Shown here one piece after another: positions 16,494-35,362 of a stretch of DNA of 35,362 bases. Under the pieces are notes generated by a model. The model was not told the origin of the DNA. It saw only the letters and a list, made by a program, of their open reading frames with translations, and ran no database searches. This DNA is from Nitrospirota bacterium. GTDB lineage: Bacteria; Nitrospirota; Thermodesulfovibrionia; UBA6902; JAJYJJ01. The stretch lies in NCBI GenBank assembly GCA_021789595.1, contig JAJYJJ010000020.1:1-35362 (forward strand), in the 5' to 3' direction. Position numbers and translations under genes: made by a program. How positions within the stretch are numbered: the stretch's first letter is position 1; each line of letters opens with the position of its first letter.

Positions 16494-16568
16494 ATGGTTT
16501 TAAAATCAGTTGAACCTCAAAATGTGGAATTCAAATCCAACTGGAGAGATGATGCTGGTGATGTTTAA
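16494..16568 (+). pseudogene. Fragment resembling the start of an AlbA_2-domain protein
   Basis: 24 residues read MVLKSVEPQNVEFKSNWRDD before stopping. E-x-x-N-[VL]-E-F-K-x-x-[WY]-R-D-[DE] is the usual opening of AlbA_2 putative DNA-binding domains in ATPase-like regulators of defence loci. AAAGGAAAT precedes the ATG as a ribosome site. The frame ends inside the first codons of the intact Fic gene, an overlap expected if the two were once adjacent coupled genes. The rest of the protein is gone. Confidence 0.5.
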
Positions 16569-17595
16569 ACCGAATTTTCGGTATACCGACAAAATAGTCA
16601 GCGATCTTACTCAGATAGCCGCTGCAAGGGAACTCGTGCTGAATTCTCCTTTTATTCCAAAATGGGAGGCCTCTCTCCGCCGGGAAGCGATTATCAGGTC
16701 TGCCCATTCATCAACCGCCATAGAAGGAAACAGACTGTCTCTGGAACAGGTCAGCGAGCTTGCGCAAGGCCGTGAAATCATGGCAACGCGAAAAGACAAG
16801 CAGGAAGTTCTGAATTATCTCAAAGTTCTCGAATCCATTGACAAACTCGCAGACGGCAAGATTAACGAAAAAAATCTTTTGCATATACATAAACTATTAA
16901 CAAAAAATACCCTCGAAAATCCTTCTGATTGCGGTGTTTATCGCACCCGCTATGTTGTAGTCGGGAACAGACTGACGGGAGAGGTTATTTTCAGGCCGCC
17001 TTCAAATGAAGATGTTCCACGGTTAATGAAAGCATTAATTGCATGGGTAAACTCTCCTGAGGCAAAGAGTCTTGACCCAGTTATAGAGGCAGGCGTTGCC
17101 CATTATGAATTTGTGCGAATCCATCCCTTTGTGGACGGTAATGGAAGAACAGCCCGTGTCCTTGCAACCATGATACTCTATCTTAGAGGTTTTGATGCGA
17201 AGCAGTTCTTCTGTCTGGATGACTACTATGACTCTGACAGACCTGCATATTACAGGGTTCTTCAGGGCGTGGATCAGAAGACCCTTGATTTAACCAAATG
17301 GCTTGAATATTTTGTTGAAGGCGTTAAGGTAAGCATTGCGTCTGTCAAAGAAAGGGTTATACGCCTCAGCAGTGAAAGACTGAGAAAGACGACAAAAGGG
17401 CAAATTGCTTTGACTGAAAGGCAGATGAAGATCGTAGAATTTATCAACCAGAATGCCCGCATAACAAATCGGGATGTGCGGGATATGTTTGAATTATCTG
17501 ACGAAGCTGTGCGGAAGGAGATTACCAAACTCACGAAGATAGGCGTTTTAAAGGGCAAAGGCAAAGGACGGGCAGTCTATTATGTCCTTCTATAA
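16552..17595 (+). CDS. Fic-domain AMP-transferase with C-terminal winged helix
   Basis: An intact protein of about 347 residues. The active site HPFVDGNGRTAR matches HPFx(D/E)GNGRxxR, so it should transfer AMP (or a similar nucleotide group) from ATP to a protein hydroxyl. The inhibitory helix motif SSTAIEGN ([S/T]xxxE[G/N]) lies N-terminal to the core, so it is self-inhibited (class II). The C-terminus (LTERQMKIVEFINQNARITNRDVRDMFELSDEAVRKEI) is a winged helix-turn-helix, suggesting DNA binding or autoregulation. GGAG is five bases before ATG 16552; ATG 16561 (MFKPNFRYTD) is an alternative closer to the usual family start. It is the only complete gene among the surrounding restriction-locus fragments. 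Confidence 0.9.
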   Translation: MLVMFKPNFRYTDKIVSDLTQIAAARELVLNSPFIPKWEASLRREAIIRSAHSSTAIEGNRLSLEQVSELAQGREIMATRKDKQEVLNYLKVLESIDKLADGKINEKNLLHIHKLLTKNTLENPSDCGVYRTRYVVVGNRLTGEVIFRPPSNEDVPRLMKALIAWVNSPEAKSLDPVIEAGVAHYEFVRIHPFVDGNGRTARVLATMILYLRGFDAKQFFCLDDYYDSDRPAYYRVLQGVDQKTLDLTKWLEYFVEGVKVSIASVKERVIRLSSERLRKTTKGQIALTERQMKIVEFINQNARITNRDVRDMFELSDEAVRKEITKLTKIGVLKGKGKGRAVYYVLL

Positions 17596-24242: not shown

Positions 24243-24494
24243 ATGGACGCAATTAAAAAAACCATCAACATTCCTCCCGGACTCCTCTGGGATTACAAGA
24301 AGCCGCCAGATGACATTCTGTGGAGGCTCCAGAGGATAGTTGATTTCTTTCCGGCATACGGAACTGATAAAGAAACCGTTGACCTCCTTTTTGAATACAG
24401 GGACAAACTCAGGATGGAAGAAGGGAAATACAAACTTATAACCCTTTATAAAGAGGTGTGGGATGAGAAAACCGGTAAGGGGACTCAGGGATAA
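24243..24494 (+). CDS. Small partner protein of the AbiEii-type gene (DUF6922-like?)
   Basis: An 83-residue protein, acidic and basic by turns, with the motif GLLWDYKKPPDDILWRLQRI and FFPAYGTDKETVDLLFEYRDKL. Short proteins with L-W-D-Y near the start are found next to AbiEii-type nucleotidyltransferases; I recall the label DUF6922 for some of them but cannot confirm it. The likely role is antitoxin or regulator of the next gene, whose start it overlaps by 32 bases. I chose ATG 24243 rather than the in-frame upstream codon at 24210, because a TAAAAT -10-like element at 24224-24229 lies between them. Confidence 0.6.
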   Translation: MDAIKKTINIPPGLLWDYKKPPDDILWRLQRIVDFFPAYGTDKETVDLLFEYRDKLRMEEGKYKLITLYKEVWDEKTGKGTQG

Positions 24495-25143
24495 CAGGGT
24501 TCTCACTGATAATCAAATTGCTTTCCTTGAGGAGTTTGTTAAATCTGACTTGAATAATGTCTTCAGACTCACAGGCGGCACAGCCTTGAGCGCCTTTTAC
24601 CTTGAACACAGGTTTTCAGAAGACCTTGATTTTTTCTCCTCTGAAAAAGTTCCTTTTTACCTGCCGGAGGAGTTTTTAAAGTCTCTGGGCTTTGTGGATA
24701 CAATAACTCATACAAAGCTGTTTGACAGGAATATATTCAACCTCAAGCTGAAAGACGAGACAATCTTAAAGACAGAATTTACTTTTTATCCTCTCAAAAA
24801 TCTTGAAGCATCTGTCGCCATTGACGGTTTGCAGGTAGACAGTTTTCTCGACATTACTGTGAACAAGCTATGCGCTATCTCGGACAGATTGGATGCAAAG
24901 GATTATGTTGATGTTTATTGCGCCTTGACCGGCAACGGACTTAATCTGAGAGAGTTGTTTGCCCTTGCCGAGAAAAAATGCGAGATTAAGGGCATTAGAC
25001 ATATACTGCAAAGCAGGCTTTTACAAATACCGGAGAGGGTTGAAAATCTGCCTTTAAAGGTTGACATAACTAAAACAGACATTGAAAATCTTTTTAAAAG
25101 ACTTGTAAAAGAACTTCTTGAGAAAGAGATCGATTGCGGTTAA
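24463..25143 (+). CDS. AbiEii/AbiGii-type nucleotidyltransferase (toxin family)
   Basis: A 226-residue protein with the nucleotidyltransferase signature FRLTGGTALSAFYLEHRFSEDLDFF: Gly-Gly at 38-39 and the metal-binding D-L-D at 54-56. The conserved FLDITVNKLCAISDRLDAKDYVDVYCAL block follows. AbiEii toxins are thought to transfer nucleotides (to tRNA in studied cases) and are held in check by a partner; this one has a small, non-AbiEi-like partner just upstream. Its 3' end overlaps the helicase gene by 10 bases, so the two may be translationally coupled. Confidence 0.85.
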   Translation: MRKPVRGLRDNRVLTDNQIAFLEEFVKSDLNNVFRLTGGTALSAFYLEHRFSEDLDFFSSEKVPFYLPEEFLKSLGFVDTITHTKLFDRNIFNLKLKDETILKTEFTFYPLKNLEASVAIDGLQVDSFLDITVNKLCAISDRLDAKDYVDVYCALTGNGLNLRELFALAEKKCEIKGIRHILQSRLLQIPERVENLPLKVDITKTDIENLFKRLVKELLEKEIDCG

Positions 25144-26873
25144 GCGCATCTCACGTTTTTGACGGTCTCAATGAATCGCAGAAACATGCTGTAATGACAA
25201 CCGAATGCCCTGTATTGATCGTCGCAGGGCCGGGGACAGGGAAGACTCTCACTATTGTCAGGCGGATAGCCTATCTTATTCATCAAGGCGCCAAACCAGA
25301 AAATATCGCGGCAGTGACATTTACCAACCGTGCAGCGCGTGAGATGTGTGAAAGGGCAAAAGCATTATTAGACAGTGATGCCCGCAAAGTATTCATCGGC
25401 ACATTCCACCTCCTCGGACTCAGGATTATAAAAGAAACCGTTTCCAATACCTTTGTAATTTACAACAGGAATGAACAGGTTAATCTCCTCAAGCCATTAA
25501 TGCAGGGTTCTGTCGTAAAGGCACAGCAGGCTGCAGAGAAAATATCCCGTATAAAGAATCTTCTTGAAGATATGGATAACGGCATTCGGGACATCTACCA
25601 GAAATATCAGTTTGAACTTCAAAAAAATTCGGCCATTGATCTTGACGACCTCATACTGAAACCAATAGAAATATTCAGCGATAGCGATCTGTTGAATAGA
25701 TACAGAGATAGATTCACGCATATCATCGTTGACGAATATCAGGACATAAACCCTGCGCAATATAGATTATTAAAACTCTTCGCCGGCGAAAGAGGGAATA
25801 TCTGTGCTGTGGGAGATTCTGACCAAGCAATCTATGCATTCAGGGGTGCTGATGTAAGCAATTTCCTGAACTTTGGAAAGGACTTCAAGGATGCAAAAAG
25901 AATCGCACTCACAGAAAATTATAGATCAACGGGTGCAATACTCAATGCCTCCGATGTACTGATAAGAAATAACCTTAAAAGGATAGATAAAGAAATCAGA
26001 CCAATTCGAGAAAAAGGAATATCAATTGCTGTCGTTTCGGTTCCTGACGAGAAGGCAGAAGGCGAGGTGATAGTAAGAGAGATAGAGCAAATGATAGGCG
26101 GCACAAGCCACTACCAATTGTATGCGAGGGGGACAAAGTTTCCTTTGCAAAATCCCCCCGAAGAAAATTGTTCCTATAATTTCTCTGATTTCGCTGTAAT
26201 CTTCAGGACAAATGCACAGGCAAAGGCAATAGAAGAGGCATTTATGGGATCCGGAATTCCATATCAGGTGATAGGAAGACATCTCCTGAAAAGAAAGGGG
26301 ATGACGGACATCATCTCAGAGCTCAAGAGCCTTGCAAGCAGGACGGACAATCTCCAGGATATGTCCATGGATGAATTCCTGAAGATGGCATTGGAGGATT
26401 CGGACTTGAAAGAAGATGATACTAATTTTGAACTTCTCAAAAATCTCGGTACTGCATATCAAAACAGCGATACTTCTATTATTGACTTTATCAATGAACT
26501 CAGCCTCCTTACACCGACAGATGACTTTGATCCGCGTGCAGATGCTGTAACGCTCATGACCCTCCACATGGCAAAGGGCCTTGAGTTTAAGGTTGTATTT
26601 ATCACAGGAGTTGAAAACAGTTTAATCCCTTACACCATCAAAAAGGACGGTGTTGATATAGAGGAAGAGCGGAGGCTTTTCTACGTAGGCATGACAAGGG
26701 CAAAAGATAAGCTTTTTCTCATACATGCAAGAAACAGATTTTTGTATGGGCAAAGACTTGAGCAGTCGCCATCGCCATTCATCAGAGAAATTCCTGATAA
26801 TTTCATAGAATGCAGGTTTATACCTGATAGAATAAAGAGGGACAGGGAAGATAAGCAGATAGGGTTGTTTTGA
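25134..26873 (+). CDS. Compact UvrD/Rep-type superfamily 1 DNA helicase
   Basis: A 579-residue ATP-dependent 3'-5' DNA helicase with all motifs: Q-motif LNESQKHAV, Walker A AGPGTGKT (31-38), VTFTNRAAREM, motif II IIVDEYQDINPAQ, motif III AVGDSDQAIYAFRGAD, motif V MTLHMAKGLEFKVVF and motif VI RLFYVGMTRAKDKL. It is shorter than UvrD (~720), lacking much of the 1B/2B insertions and the C-terminal tail. The last residues are KQIGLF, with QIGLF like a sliding-clamp-binding motif. An in-frame TGA at 25119 leaves TTG 25134 as the only reasonable start, inside the AbiEii end. It probably works in repair with the endonuclease Q protein. Confidence 0.93.
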   Translation: MRLSASHVFDGLNESQKHAVMTTECPVLIVAGPGTGKTLTIVRRIAYLIHQGAKPENIAAVTFTNRAAREMCERAKALLDSDARKVFIGTFHLLGLRIIKETVSNTFVIYNRNEQVNLLKPLMQGSVVKAQQAAEKISRIKNLLEDMDNGIRDIYQKYQFELQKNSAIDLDDLILKPIEIFSDSDLLNRYRDRFTHIIVDEYQDINPAQYRLLKLFAGERGNICAVGDSDQAIYAFRGADVSNFLNFGKDFKDAKRIALTENYRSTGAILNASDVLIRNNLKRIDKEIRPIREKGISIAVVSVPDEKAEGEVIVREIEQMIGGTSHYQLYARGTKFPLQNPPEENCSYNFSDFAVIFRTNAQAKAIEEAFMGSGIPYQVIGRHLLKRKGMTDIISELKSLASRTDNLQDMSMDEFLKMALEDSDLKEDDTNFELLKNLGTAYQNSDTSIIDFINELSLLTPTDDFDPRADAVTLMTLHMAKGLEFKVVFITGVENSLIPYTIKKDGVDIEEERRLFYVGMTRAKDKLFLIHARNRFLYGQRLEQSPSPFIREIPDNFIECRFIPDRIKRDREDKQIGLF

Positions 26874-28804: not shown

Positions 28805-29028
28805 ACTCTTGCTGTCAACCACACACCTTTATAAGGTTTGTAGTTCGCATATTTTAAACGATAGAACAACTTCTTTGTAAGTTATTTCCTGCATGAGGTT
28901 ATTGACATGTTACACAAAATCTAATTACCATGAATCAAAGGAAGCATGTGGCAGATCAGTTTTCGGCATATCCGCAATAAAAATTCGCAAGAATGGTAAA
29001 TACACCGAGCCAGACAACCCCGCCCCGT

Positions 29029-29057
29029 TTGGCATTTATTTCTTCATTATGTTATAA
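29029..29057 (+). promoter_or_regulatory. Promoter of the MacAB-like efflux operon
   Basis: TTGGCA (29029-29034), a 17-base spacer and TTATAA (29052-29057). Expected start ~29064, giving a 25-base leader to ATG 29089 with AAGGG as ribosome site. This also argues against the longer reading of the first gene from 28993. Confidence 0.5.
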
Positions 29058-29088
29058 ATATCTTCAAAATCGGTCTCAAGGGCGAATA

Positions 29089-30303
29089 ATGGCGAATGAA
29101 GACCTTGCGAAGTTGAGGATAGATAAAACAAGCACGGTTTATAAGGCACGAAGGAAAAAGAGGCCACTTTTCTGGATAGCTGTTCTTTTGCTGGTCCTGC
29201 TTATCTTTATTTTATACAGGACTGTCTTTAATCCATCGGTGGAAGTTGAGGTGATAACTGTCTCGCAGGTCTATCCCTCCCAGTCCTTCACCCTCCTAAA
29301 TGCGAGCGGATATGTTGTTGCCCAGAGGAAGGCATCTGTTGCTTCGAAGACTACAGGCCGTCTCGAATGGCTGGGGGTCGAGGAAGGAAACAGGGTTAAA
29401 TCCGGTCAGATAATAGCACGGCTTGAAGGGAAGGATGCATTAGCTTTGAAGGAACAGGCAGCCGCCAACCTTAACAGCGTCCGTTCTTCCCTTGATGAGG
29501 CAAAGGCAGAGCTTGAAGTTGCTACCCTCAACTATAACCGCAGCAGGGATCTCCTTTCCCATGAGTTTATTGCGAAAGCCGACTTCGATGCTGCCGAGGC
29601 GCGATATAAGAAAGCGAAGGCCTCGGTCGAAGGTGCGGAGGCCAACATAAAGGCTGCTAAAGCAGCGCTCGATGCAGCAAATGTGGCGGTTGAATATACC
29701 TTTATACGGGCGCCCTTTGATGCTGTGGTGCTCACAAAGAATGCCGATATAGGTGATATCATAACTCCCCTCGGCGCTGCTGCAAATGCAAAGGCCGCTG
29801 TAGCAACAATTGCTGATATGTCCTCTCTTCAGGTGGAGGCGGATGTGTCAGAGTCAAATCTCGAAAAGGTGAGAGCAGGTCAGCCCTGCGAGATACAGCT
29901 CGATGCAATCCAGGGATCGAGGTTCAGGGGCATTGTACATATGATAGTTCCGACAGTCGACCGTACGAAGGCATCCGTAATGGTTAAGGTGCGTTTTAAT
30001 GATAAGGACGAAAGGGTTCTTCCAGAGATGAGTGCAAAGGTGGCCTTCCTCGAACGTCCTGTCACCCCTCAGGAACAGCAGCCAAAGACTGCACTGAATC
30101 CTGATGCGATTATCAAAAGAAATGGAAATCAGGTCGTATTTTTAGTGAAGGGAGAAAGGGTTGAGGAGACACCTGTTAAGACAGGAGGAAAGATAGGCGA
30201 TGTCCTCGAAGTCCTGAGCGGTGTGAAACCAGGAGACAGGGTTGTTATAAAGCCGCCAGGGAAACTGAGGAATGGTTCGAAGGTCACGACCAAGGAAAAA
30301 TAG
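29089..30303 (+). CDS. Membrane fusion (adaptor) protein of a MacAB-like efflux system
   Basis: A 404-residue adaptor of the HlyD/RND type. A short cytoplasmic part and one membrane helix (about 27-46, LFWIAVLLLVLLIFILYR) precede a periplasmic body: the barrel-sandwich hybrid (GYVVAQRKASVASKTTGRLEW ... VEEGNRVKSGQIIARLEG), a coiled-coil hairpin rich in Ala/Lys/Glu (about 120-200), the second half-motif IRAPFDAVVLTKNADIGDI, and a beta-barrel. It links the inner-membrane ABC pump to an outer-membrane channel. The ATPase and permease genes follow within 15 bases. Confidence 0.9.
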   Translation: MANEDLAKLRIDKTSTVYKARRKKRPLFWIAVLLLVLLIFILYRTVFNPSVEVEVITVSQVYPSQSFTLLNASGYVVAQRKASVASKTTGRLEWLGVEEGNRVKSGQIIARLEGKDALALKEQAAANLNSVRSSLDEAKAELEVATLNYNRSRDLLSHEFIAKADFDAAEARYKKAKASVEGAEANIKAAKAALDAANVAVEYTFIRAPFDAVVLTKNADIGDIITPLGAAANAKAAVATIADMSSLQVEADVSESNLEKVRAGQPCEIQLDAIQGSRFRGIVHMIVPTVDRTKASVMVKVRFNDKDERVLPEMSAKVAFLERPVTPQEQQPKTALNPDAIIKRNGNQVVFLVKGERVEETPVKTGGKIGDVLEVLSGVKPGDRVVIKPPGKLRNGSKVTTKEK

Positions 30304-30318
30304 ATCACGATTATTCAG

Positions 30319-31011
30319 ATGAAGCAGAATAATTCCAATATAGTCGAGATCAGAGATCTCTCAAAGTCCTACCAGAGGGGAGATCAGATAATCCATGTGC
30401 TTGAGGATATCACCTTTGATATCATTGAAGGGGAATTCCTTGCACTTATGGGACCTTCAGGCTCTGGCAAAAGCACGCTGTTAAATCTTGTTGCAGGAAT
30501 AGATAAGGCCGATAAGGGGTCGATAAAGGTGGCAGGGGTTGAGATAACATTACTTTCTGAAACAGAACTCGCCCACTGGCGCGCAGTAAATGTCGGTTTT
30601 ATATTCCAGTTTTATAATCTCATACCTGTACTTACAGCCTTCGAGAACGTGGAGCTCCCGCTTCTCCTCACAGGGCTTTCAAGAAAAGAGAGAAGAGAAC
30701 ATGCGGAAACAGCATTGAATGTTGTAAACCTTGGAGACCGGATGGACCATTATCCTGGCCAGCTCTCAGGAGGGCAGCAGCAGCGCGTGGCAATAGCCCG
30801 CGCTATAGTAACGGACCCCACAATAGTTGTCGCCGATGAGCCTACAGGTGACCTTGACCGTGTCTCTGCCAGAGATGTCCTGGAACTGATGTGCAGATTG
30901 AACAAGGAGTTTGGCAAGACCATAATAATGGTGACCCATGACCCGCGGTCGGCAGAGAAGGCCAACATCATCAGGCATCTCGAAAAGGGTGTTCTGAATG
31001 AAGCTTCCTAA
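30319..31011 (+). CDS. MacB/LolD-type ABC ATPase
   Basis: A 230-residue ATPase. Walker A is GPSGSGKST, the Q-loop region FIFQFYNLIPVLTAFENVELPLL is typical of the MacB/LolD class, and signature LSGGQQQR, Walker B IVVADEPTGDLD and the switch His in MVTHDPRSAEKA are all intact. It powers a mechanotransmission-type exporter rather than classic substrate translocation. It overlaps the first permease by 14 bases. Confidence 0.93.
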   Translation: MKQNNSNIVEIRDLSKSYQRGDQIIHVLEDITFDIIEGEFLALMGPSGSGKSTLLNLVAGIDKADKGSIKVAGVEITLLSETELAHWRAVNVGFIFQFYNLIPVLTAFENVELPLLLTGLSRKERREHAETALNVVNLGDRMDHYPGQLSGGQQQRVAIARAIVTDPTIVVADEPTGDLDRVSARDVLELMCRLNKEFGKTIIMVTHDPRSAEKANIIRHLEKGVLNEAS

Positions 31012-32155
31012 ACTGATATTAAAAAACCTCTTCCGCCACAAACTCCGCACCGGACTAACAATCCTCGGCATCACCATCGCTATCCTTGCCTTCGGGCTCC
31101 TGCGTACTGTTGTGAGTGCCTGGTATGCAGGCGTTGAGGCATCCTCATCAACACGACTTATCACAAGGAATGCCATATCCCTCATATTTTTTCTTCCCCT
31201 TTCGTACAAGGATAAGATACGCCAGATCCCCGGTGTAAAGAACATATCCTATTCCTACTGGTTCGGGGGCATCTATATCTCTGAGAAGAATTTCATCCCG
31301 AATTTTGCTGTTGATTCAAAAACAGTTTTTGAACTCTGGCCGGAATTTGTTCTTCCCGAAAAGCAGAAGAATGATTTCCTGCGGGACAGGAAGGCGTGTG
31401 TTGCAGGAAGAAAGGTTGCTGAAAAATTCGGCTGGAAGATTGGAGACACCATCACTCTTAAAGGTACGATATTTCCAGGCAACTGGGATTTTGTGCTCAG
31501 GGGCATCTACCGGGGCGCATATAAGGGCACTGACGAGACGCAATTTTTCTTTCACTGGGAGTATCTCAATGAATCACTGAAAAAGACCGCTCCTGACCGG
31601 GCTGACAGGGTCGGCTGGTATGTAGTAGGTGTAACCAATCCTAACCTTGCCTCAGAGGTGGCTGCTGCAATTGACAGGACATTCAAAAACTCATTGGCAG
31701 AGACCATAACAGAGACCGAGAAGGCATTCCAGTTGGGCTTTGTTTCCATGACAGAAGCAATTGTGGTTGCTGTTCAGATAGTCTCGGTTGTTGTAATAAT
31801 TATCATTCTGGCAGTTATGGCCAATACAATGGCAATGACTGCGAGGGAGCGTATCGGAGAATATGCAATAATGAAGACCCTTGGTTTCGGCGCATGGCAT
31901 ATTGCAGTACTCATATTCGGCGAATCGCTGATTATTGCATCTATGGGCTGCGCCCTCGGGATTGGTGCAACATTTCCTGCTGCAAAGGCATTCGGGGATG
32001 CTATGAGTACGTATTTCCCTGTCTTTAATGTCCAGATGCAAACTATTTATATGGATATAGCCGCTACATTTGTTGTAGATGTAGCTGCAGCAGTCTTTCC
32101 AGCATGGAGGGCAGCGAAACTAAGGATTGCTGATGGACTGCGAAGGATTGGTTAG
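30998..32155 (+). CDS. FtsX/MacB-type permease, first copy
   Basis: A 385-residue permease with one N-terminal membrane helix (LRTGLTILGITIAILAFGLLR), a large periplasmic MacB-PCD-like domain (~50-260) and three C-terminal helices (AIVVAVQIVSVVVIIIILAV, IAVLIFGESLIIASMGCALG and the segment before VFPAWRAAKLRIADGLRRIG). The motif MARERIGEYAIMKTLGF-type (TARERIGEYAIMKTLGF) is the coupling helix region. The next gene is a second, paralogous permease, so the working pump may be a heterodimer. Confidence 0.9.
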   Translation: MKLPKLILKNLFRHKLRTGLTILGITIAILAFGLLRTVVSAWYAGVEASSSTRLITRNAISLIFFLPLSYKDKIRQIPGVKNISYSYWFGGIYISEKNFIPNFAVDSKTVFELWPEFVLPEKQKNDFLRDRKACVAGRKVAEKFGWKIGDTITLKGTIFPGNWDFVLRGIYRGAYKGTDETQFFFHWEYLNESLKKTAPDRADRVGWYVVGVTNPNLASEVAAAIDRTFKNSLAETITETEKAFQLGFVSMTEAIVVAVQIVSVVVIIIILAVMANTMAMTARERIGEYAIMKTLGFGAWHIAVLIFGESLIIASMGCALGIGATFPAAKAFGDAMSTYFPVFNVQMQTIYMDIAATFVVDVAAAVFPAWRAAKLRIADGLRRIG

Positions 32156-32161
32156 AGAAAA

Positions 32162-32959
32162 GTGAAAATACCACTTTCATACAGTTTGCGTAATCTCTTG
32201 ACAAGAAGGCTTACAACAACACTTACAGCTTCAGGAATGGCGCTTGTGGTATTTGTGTTTGCCTCGGTTCTGATGCTTTCCGAAGGGCTCAGAAAAACCC
32301 TTGTTGAGACAGGCTCTTATGATAATGTGGTGGTAATCCGCAAGGGAGCAAATTCAGAGGTCATGAGCGGGGTTGAGCGGCTTCAGGCTTCCATAATAGA
32401 GACACAGCCCGAGGTTGCCATTGGAGAAAACGGCCAGAGACTGATCGCTAAAGAAATAGTTGTGCTTGTAAATCTTTTGAAAAGAGGAAGTAACAAGCCT
32501 TCTCTTGTCCAGATTAGAGGTATTGATAAATTTTCAATGATTTTGCGTCCGCAGGTTAAACTAATACAGGGCCGCATGCCAAAATCTGGCTCATCTGAGA
32601 TAATCGCAGGTTCAAGCATAGATAGAAGGTTCAAAGGAGGAGGACTGGGGGAGATGCTCCATTTTGCTATGAGAGACTGGACTGTGGTGGGGGTGTTTGA
32701 AGCAGGCAATACGGGATTTAATTCTGAGATCTGGGGAGATGCAGACCAGCTCATGCAGGCATTCAGAAGGAATGCCTATTCATCAGTGATTTTCAAGCTC
32801 CGCAACTCTTCTGAATTTCAAAGATTTAAAGAAAGGATAGAGAGCGAGCCCCGCCTTACCCTTGAGGCAAGGCGTGAAACAAGATACTATGCTGACCAGT
32901 CAGAGATGATGACAAAGTTTCTCAGTATCCTCGGCTTATCACTGACAATAATCTTTTCT
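32162..32959 (+). pseudogene. Second FtsX/MacB-type permease, 5' part before the IS
   Basis: Starts MKIPLSYSLRNLLTRRLTTTL with one membrane helix (MALVVFVFASVLMLSEGL) and the periplasmic domain. At residue 266 (LSLTIIFS) the coding DNA is cut by the insertion sequence; the open frame runs on into the IS to 33040 with unrelated residues. Removing the IS and one target copy joins this to 34340 in frame and gives a 388-residue protein like its neighbour. As it stands the three C-terminal helices are detached, so the exporter is probably inactive. Confidence 0.92.
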
Positions 32960-32985
32960 GGCTCTTCTGGAAAGAGTGTGGGTAA
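32960..32985 (+). repeat. Left terminal inverted repeat of the ISL3 element
   Basis: 26 bases, exact reverse complement of 34306-34331. The target duplication TCTTTTCT lies directly outside at 32952-32959. Confidence 0.95.
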
Positions 32986-32998
32986 TTTTTTGCATTTT

Positions 32999-34218
32999 TT
33001 ATATCTCCTTGAGCATACAGGTAAGGATTTTAAGCCTTAAGTACTCCTCATCTCTTAAACCGTAAGCCCTTCTCTGTATAACCCTGATCTTATTATTCAG
33101 TCCCTCTACAAATCCCAATGATACTTTGTTTTCAGGTCTTGAGTATGCTGCAATACCCTCCCAATGTTTCTCAATCATCTCCGCAAACAACTCGTAAGAT
33201 TTTAACCTCTGCCATTTCAATGATTCCTTCCAGTTGTCAAAAAATCTCCGCGCCCATCCCTCCGTCTGATAACTCCATAACTGCCCAAATGATTCCTTTA
33301 GCAGATAGGCAGTATTAAGCCGTTTGTTTGCCGTAAGCAGCTTCTTTAATGCCTTCCTTCCATCAAGGGTAAGGTTCTCCCTGTTTGATAGCAGTGTGTA
33401 TTTTTGCCCTTTGATGTAGGAACGGTCTTTACCGGAAAGCCTTGCATATTCCATCTTCCGCACTGTGTCCAATGCCTCTCCCAGATGCCTCATTACATGA
33501 AACTTGTCATAAAGAATCGCTGCCTGGGCTGCATTCTTCTTTGTAGATTTCTTAAATGCCTTCCACATATCCATTACTGCCAACTGTATCTTCTTTGTCT
33601 TCTTTTGCCCAAGCCATTGGTAAAATATATCAAGACTTTCTTCAGACCGATCTTTGCCTCCAAACCAAATAGGTCTTCTACGCTCTATGTCGCTTACTAC
33701 TACCCGATAGGTATGCCCCTTCCTTAACGATACTTCGTCTATCCCAATGACACGAGGCGCAGCAACAGGATTTCTCTCAAGCTGCTTCTCCATATACTCT
33801 TTGTCCAATGCCTTCACAGTTTCCCAGTCCAGCTTGAGTTCCTTCGCTGCATCCTTTATCGTCATCCCACGACACTTCCGTCCTGCATAATAGGCAAACC
33901 GCTTCGTGTAAAAGGGATTGTTCGCTATCCACTCCAGCTTCTCCGTCTTCACTTTGCCGCACTCCCGACATAATACCCGTCGAACCTCCACTTCCAGATA
34001 TACCCTTGCATCCCCACATGATAAATCCCGTATCCATCGCACCTTCTTGTCGTAATGACTCCGATGGACCTTGCCACAACATCCACATACTGTTTTTTTT
34101 GAGTCCTTTCAAGCCGAATAACCCGTGCCTTCGGGTCTCCAAATATCCCCTTAACTTCTGCTTTCGGACGAAACCCGGGGAACCGATATTCGTCCAGCAG
34201 CTTCCTCTTTTTTCGCAT
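32999..34218 (-). CDS. ISL3 transposase, probably made by -1 frameshifting
   Basis: Two frames make one protein. The first runs from ATG 34218 for 42 codons (ending RVIRLERTQKK) to an A8 run at 34093-34100. Slipping back one base there continues TVCGCCGKVHRSHYDKKVRW into the long frame ending at 32999, total about 406 residues, the normal ISL3 size. The shift restores the N-terminal zinc element (CGCC ... CRECG), whose first half is lost if translation starts at 34042. The catalytic core includes PRVIGIDEVSLRKGHTY, QLAVMDMWKAF and the late Glu in SLGFVEGLNNKIRVIQRRAYG. Either programmed slippage or a one-base mutation in the A run; I cannot tell which. Confidence 0.82.
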
Positions 34219-34305
34219 ATAAAGATCATACAGATTTTTCTACCTTAAAGAAACTTCTTTTTTCCCTTATTTTATGCTATTCTATGGCTAATTTATGGCT
34301 CATTT

Positions 34306-34331
34306 TTACCCACACTCTTTCCAGAAGAGCC
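34306..34331 (-). repeat. Right terminal inverted repeat of the ISL3 element
   Basis: 26 bases, exact reverse complement of 32960-32985. The second copy of the target duplication follows at 34332-34339. Confidence 0.95.
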
Positions 34332-34339
34332 TCTTTTCT

Positions 34340-34708
34340 TTTGGAGCCGTTGTCGGAGCAATGATTACAATGTATGCTGCGGTTGCAAACCGCACAGACG
34401 AGATCGGCACTCTCCGCGCTCTCGGTTTCCGGAGAAGAAATATACTTATGGCATTTCTTGGGGAGTCACTGCTCTTGGGTTTTATTGGCGGGTGTGTCGG
34501 ACTATTTTTTGCCTCTTTCATGCAGCTTCTTACAATTTCGACGATGAACTGGCAGACATTTTCAGAGCTTGCTTTTTCATTTTCGTTGACTTTTGAGATT
34601 ATTTGCAAGTCTCTGTTTTTTTCATTGGTCATGGGCTTCGTGGGTGGTGTGCTTCCGGCATTTCGTGCAGCGAGGATGAATATTGTTGATGCCCTGAGGA
34701 TAACTTAG
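34340..34708 (+). pseudogene. Second FtsX/MacB-type permease, 3' part after the IS
   Basis: Continues the frame of the 5' part: FGAVVGAMITMYAAVANRTDEIGTLRALGFRRRNILMAFL (the coupling region, matching the first permease), then the last membrane helices and the end AFRAARMNIVDALRIT. A start inside the IS (34295) would read through into it, but would give only the C-terminal helices. It is the last gene of the efflux operon. Confidence 0.92.
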
Positions 34709-35059: not shown

Positions 35060-35073
35060 CTTTGCATTTTAAT

Positions 35074-35189
<116 letters not shown>

Positions 35190-35267
35190 AAATATAATAT
35201 ACCACAATCCTTTTCAAAAAAGCAATATCTATTCTTTGACAACAGGAGGTATTAGTTTAGGGTTAAT

Positions 35268-35362
35268 AGAAGGTCAAGGCACACGGCCTATTAGTACTGG
35301 TTAGCTCAATGCCTTACGGCACTTACACATCCAGCCTATCGACCTAATAGTCTATTAGGGGC
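35268..35362 (-). rRNA. rrl: 23S ribosomal RNA, 3' end only
   Basis: The minus strand shows the last helices of 23S rRNA: GGTCGATAGGCTGGATGTG, CCGTAAGGCATTGAGCTAAC and CAGTACTAATAGGCC before the 3' end near 35268. The gene continues beyond the window. The spacer to 5S is about 78 bases and contains no tRNA. Confidence 0.93.

Follow-up and report, generated by a model that had tools for sequence, protein, structure and literature searches.

A conserved slippery heptamer points to programmed −1 recoding of the transposase in one clade of ISL3 insertion sequences

That recoding controls transposition is textbook knowledge for IS1 and IS3, and the IS3-type system yields three products, OrfA, OrfB and OrfAB. 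Elements of this kind, such as IS911 and IS1, have overlapping ORFs with ORF2 in the −1 frame, an A-rich heptamer and a fusion product that bears the DDE domain. Among the heptamers found in IS1 and IS3 elements, A_AAA_AAG and A_AAA_AAA together make up 72% (PMC4066793). Recoding also splits the transposases of IS630 and IS5, in many cases at an A-rich site (PMC5009743, PMC3711429), and the occurrence of both +1 and −1 groups in IS630 has been taken as pointing to polymerase slippage (PMC3711429). Only IS1, IS3, IS5 and IS630 are named as frameshift users in a 2016 review (PMC5009743), the main text of the GeneTack study makes no mention of ISL3 (PMC3711429), and a search of the literature for ISL3 together with frameshifting or slippage, with ISfinder and a 2011 recoding survey outside its scope, returned no relevant report. 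Canonical ISL3 elements have a single ORF with DDE_Tnp_ISL3, HTH_Tnp_ISL3 and Zn_ribbon_ISL3 domains, inverted repeats that begin with GG, and 8-bp target duplications. The element described here shares these domains and ends but, unlike canonical ISL3 elements, including the 18 that we compared, it does not encode the zinc ribbon and the N-terminus in one frame.

The window, which is the whole 35,362-nucleotide stretch of DNA analysed, contains a complete and intact ISL3-family insertion sequence of 1372 bp (Table 1). Its transposase matches the ISL3 catalytic domain (PF01610, DDE_Tnp_ISL3, E 3.4e-67; NF033550, 310 bits against a cut-off of 180), and PF13542 (HTH_Tnp_ISL3) also scores above cut-off. 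The ends match one another in full and are flanked by the 8-bp duplication TCTTTTCT, as is typical of the family. A profile search of the element detected only ISL3 domains, and no IS3-type integrase-core transposase. The interrupted host gene can still be read from its two halves, of which the upstream one matches MacB_PCD and the downstream one FtsX. We conclude that the element is a recent, intact insertion. It is present as a single copy in the source genome, and no second genome in the genus or family of the source organism was found for a comparison of copies. The split permease gene is the second of two MacB-like permease genes in a tandem arrangement (28993-34708) that also includes a MacA-like adaptor and an ABC ATPase. 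Elsewhere in the window, 5S and the 3′ end of 23S rRNA genes lie about 0.7 kb from the element (35073-35362, minus strand), a gene for an AbiEii-type nucleotidyltransferase (24463-25140) adjoins a UvrD-like helicase gene (25134-26870) in a possible toxin-antitoxin or defence context, and a Fic/DOC-family protein with a winged HTH at its C-terminus is encoded at 16510-17592.

Table 1. Positions of the ISL3 element, its reading frames and associated signals in the window
Feature	Position	Strand	Basis or remark
ISL3 element	32960..34331	-	terminal inverted repeats, flanking direct repeats, domains PF01610, PF13542 and PF14690
Left terminal inverted repeat, transposase 5′ side, GGCTCTTCTGGAAAGAGTGTGGGTAA	34306..34331	-	26/26 against other end
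Right terminal inverted repeat	32960..32985	-	26/26 match, perfect
Target duplication copy 1, 8 bp, TCTTTTCT	32952..32959	.	identical to 34332-34339
Target duplication copy 2, 8 bp, TCTTTTCT	34332..34339	.	perfect repeat of 32952-32959
MacB-like FtsX permease gene, split by the insertion	32162..34708	+	5′ part to 32959, 3′ part from 34340
ORF1, 89 aa (42 codons to slip, 47-codon tail)	33949..34218	-	tail read only without shift
A8 run	34093..34100 (34100-34093 in reading direction)	-	sequence
ORF2, −1 frame, 364 codons and stop	32999..34093	-	zinc ribbon, helix-turn-helix, DDE catalytic domain
GTGA, ORF2 codon V48 (GTG) over ORF1 TGA	33949..33952	-	proposed coupled restart, just before HTH
GGGAG, Shine-Dalgarno-like, 9 nt before GTG	33962..33966	-	sequence
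TATGAT, −10-like, 6 nt before ORF1 ATG	34225..34230	-	putative function

A single continuous transposase frame is usual for ISL3, although not strictly defining, and the window element lacks one. The sequence-only reading had proposed that this transposase needs a −1 shift at an A8 run within 34085-34105, and both frames were confirmed on the minus strand. ORF1 starts with an ATG at 34218 and stops at a TGA at 33951-33949. As proposed, 42 codons of the ATG frame reach the run; they encode MRKKRKLLDEYRFPGFRPKAEVKGIFGDPKARVIRLERTQKK and close with CAA AAA AAA. The slippery heptamer A_AAA_AAA occupies 34099-34093 in the phase of ORF1, and the next base is C (A_AAA_AAA_C). After a slip, the −1 frame reads KTVCGCCGKVHR... 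through to the stop at 32999, and the junction of the predicted fusion lies within ..ERTQKKTVCGCCGK.. The same reading held that the shift restores the first CxxC half of the zinc element. This was borne out, since the PF14690 zinc ribbon scores 22.2 bits from the first ORF2 start codon, below its cut-off of 25.5, and 33.6 bits in the frameshifted fusion (model positions 2-47 of 47). Neither the 42-residue arm of ORF1 nor its tail contains a known domain. The arrangement resembles that of IS911 and IS1, but the transposase family is unrelated, and ORF1, a 42-residue arm with an unconserved tail, is no recognisable DNA-binding regulator.

A homopolymer indel, through a broken gene or a sequencing error, would give the same appearance in a single copy, and such indels are common. 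We collected relatives from a one-genome-per-species scan, which gave 80 related loci, and from a search that covered 295 genomes within the phylum. At each locus, all three frames ahead of the zinc ribbon were compared. After removal of duplicates, 78 elements with a recognisable N-terminus remained, the window's included, most of the relatives coming from draft metagenome assemblies. A −1 shift is needed in 64 of them; of the others, 12 have the N-terminus in the other frame and 2 scored as sharing the frame of ORF2. The −1 elements range from 43% to 87% identity to the window ORF2. Inverted repeats are found at the expected position in 41 of them, once a spurious 42nd match, that in L077, is set aside. 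Perfect 8-bp target duplications flank 18 of the −1 elements, indicating that elements of this build have transposed. In a maximum-likelihood tree, a single branch (91/99 support) separates all −1 elements from the single-frame ISL3 elements; more distant ISL3 elements, such as L115 and L140 at 38-44% identity, are single-frame. The off-frame copies are scattered tips that form no lineage and no maintained +1 group. In favour of an indel, 12 relatives are off-frame with odd run lengths, and one copy, in Brocadia sapporoensis (L035), has an A6 run and a single frame. Against it, the identical frame relation in 64 distinct elements, the fixed AAA codons, the conserved ORF1 stop (see below), the position in one clade, and the intact ends and target duplications make damage or error extremely unlikely, and we rejected private damage as an account of the clade. 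The main idea of the sequence-only reading, programmed slippage rather than a private mutation, thus stands, as does its remark that a shift would be unusual for ISL3, given the single frame of distant ISL3 elements and the four families listed in the 2016 review (PMC5009743).

The elements that need the shift belong to a single ISL3 clade, which extends over about a dozen phyla. According to record titles and taxonomy, these are Nitrospirota, Planctomycetota, Thermodesulfobacteriota, Myxococcota, Omnitrophota, Elusimicrobiota, Methylomirabilota, Chloroflexota, Pseudomonadota, Actinomycetota, Patescibacteria and Wirthbacteria, a list drawn mostly from metagenome bins in which individual assignments may be wrong. 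The Brocadia sapporoensis copy reads in one continuous frame over the junction, near locus position 1500. If real, it is a natural member of the clade that needs no shift, and would be a useful comparator for transposition rate.

The sequence-only reading had suggested a comparison of the run across copies, and its outcome favours programming: A7 or A8 is kept in 55 of the 64 distinct −1 elements (A8 in 33 and A7 in 22), A6 is found in 6, and no site has A9 or longer. A_AAA_AAA stands in the phase of ORF1 in 54 of the 64, and four of the six A6 elements have G_AAA_AAA, a weaker site. The base after AAA_AAA is C in 56 of the 60 elements that carry this hexamer. Counting related elements as independent, as in all codon statistics here, the lysine codons at the slip are AAA in 59/64 (first) and 55/64 (second), whereas in the rest of these genes, which are often GC-rich, AAA accounts for 30% of the lysine codons. 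In two elements (L039 and L102) the site is displaced by one codon, and the run is still in phase.

Programmed slippage could instead be transcriptional, with RNA polymerase adding an A, or dropping two, such that normal translation gives the fusion. It has been proposed that A8 runs support productive slippage in some IS elements (PMC1088944), slippage within seven A's is reported for IS1447 (PMC6211511), and a pattern such as ours, with 12 of 78 copies off-frame, was read as polymerase slippage by the authors of GeneTack (PMC3711429). We nevertheless consider this explanation improbable. Of the 64 sites, 22 offer only A7 and none has A9 or longer, the run holds the phase needed for tandem tRNA slippage even where it is displaced, and the off-frame copies do not form a maintained +1 group. 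IS630, a different family as is IS5, has both +1 and −1 groups, whereas the window's clade is mainly −1. The fixed direction, the fixed phase and the short runs lead us to favour ribosomal over transcriptional slippage as the probable mechanism.

Both frames appear to be translated. In the ORF1 N-terminus, divergence at codon positions 1, 2 and 3 is 0.36, 0.29 and 0.61, so this segment evolves mainly at third positions, as expected of a translated protein frame; in ORF2, the stretch from the slip to V48 keeps its cysteines and has ordinary synonymous divergence. No start codon occurs at a conserved place in the ORF2 frame before residue 48 across the clade elements. Since the zinc-ribbon residues between the slip and V48 exist only in that frame, a fusion is likely to be made. 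The ORF1 tail is a different matter: it is not conserved as protein, and selection on it was rejected because ORF2 synonymous identity is 0.35 in the overlap vs 0.36 elsewhere.

The end of that tail is conserved. Unshifted ORF1 ends 47 codons past the slip in most elements, at a TGA that arises from ORF2 codons V48-K49 (GTG AAR), with V48 three residues ahead of the HTH domain. V48 is GTG in 56/59 elements, against 20.9 predicted from the codon use of each individual element, so that a by-product of codon usage was rejected; the matching valine of single-frame ISL3 elements is GTG in 6/13. Selection for a stop alone was also rejected, as GTA (giving TAA) would serve too, yet occurs in 1/57 where 17.5 are expected. 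The GTG excess and the GTA shortage indicate that the kept feature is GTGA, in which stop and start codons overlap. Across the clade, Shine-Dalgarno-like sequence is modestly enriched before the GTG (mean z −0.64 ± 0.15). These observations suggest stop/start coupling that would yield a second product without the zinc ribbon, as in IS3-type systems. Taken further, the strong conservation of GTGA and the signal ahead of it could mean that no fusion is made at all, with ORF1 and ORF2 as separate products and ORF2 translated from the coupled GTG. This is very unlikely: it leaves the phased heptamer unexplained, along with the conserved zinc-ribbon residues found only in the ORF2 frame, and coupling can coexist with frameshifting.

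A downstream stimulatory RNA structure is often, but not always, part of programmed −1 ribosomal frameshifting. Here none was detected, as folding energies at offsets of 4-30 nt equalled those of synonymous shuffles (mean z about 0), and in this respect the window element differs from IS3 and IS1. Upstream of the slip there is a modest Shine-Dalgarno-like excess (mean z −0.58 ± 0.13); an upstream Shine-Dalgarno stimulator is estimated for 56% of IS elements (PMC5009743), and some published IS frameshift sites have no established stimulator, among them the A_AAA_AAC_1 cluster, a proven case (PMC4066793). Further upstream, 29 of 60 elements (L087, L033 and L020 among them) have ATGAT at a distance of exactly 6 nt from the ORF1 ATG. 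If ATGAT belongs to a −10 box, its position suggests a nearly leaderless transposase mRNA. Elements with ATGAT sometimes have a TTGAC-like box about 16 nt further upstream.

On this evidence from sequence comparison, the window transposase is likely to be made by programmed −1 recoding that is conserved through one ISL3 clade. Most ribosomes would read ORF1 to the TGA at 33949 and release the 89-aa product, and a few would shift backwards by one base on the heptamer to make a fused transposase of 42 residues plus ORF2, in which the zinc ribbon is predicted to be complete and to be joined to the helix-turn-helix and DDE domains. The frequency of the slip would then cap transposition. With less certainty, ribosomes that end at the TGA might restart at the overlapping GTG to give a third product with HTH and DDE domains but no zinc ribbon, possibly a regulator like that of the IS3-type three-product scheme. 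The full combination, in which an ISL3 branch across about a dozen phyla independently became IS3-like, with −1 ribosomal frameshifting, a regulatory HTH-DDE protein made through GTGA and a near-leaderless mRNA, is a tentative proposal to which we give rather less than an even chance.

The split is very likely to be an intrinsic brake on transposition and not the mark of a damaged gene. Recoding fixed in a large ISL3 clade would mean that it arose anew in an unrelated transposase family. It would also mean that genes of this kind are mis-annotated; in CP114560, the one annotated example examined, the start is placed in the ORF2 frame and the true N-terminus is missing. As the division separates the N-terminal arm from the zinc ribbon, the slip frequency would set the share of transposase in which the zinc ribbon can be complete. 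A shorter product is predicted from the GTGA overlap.
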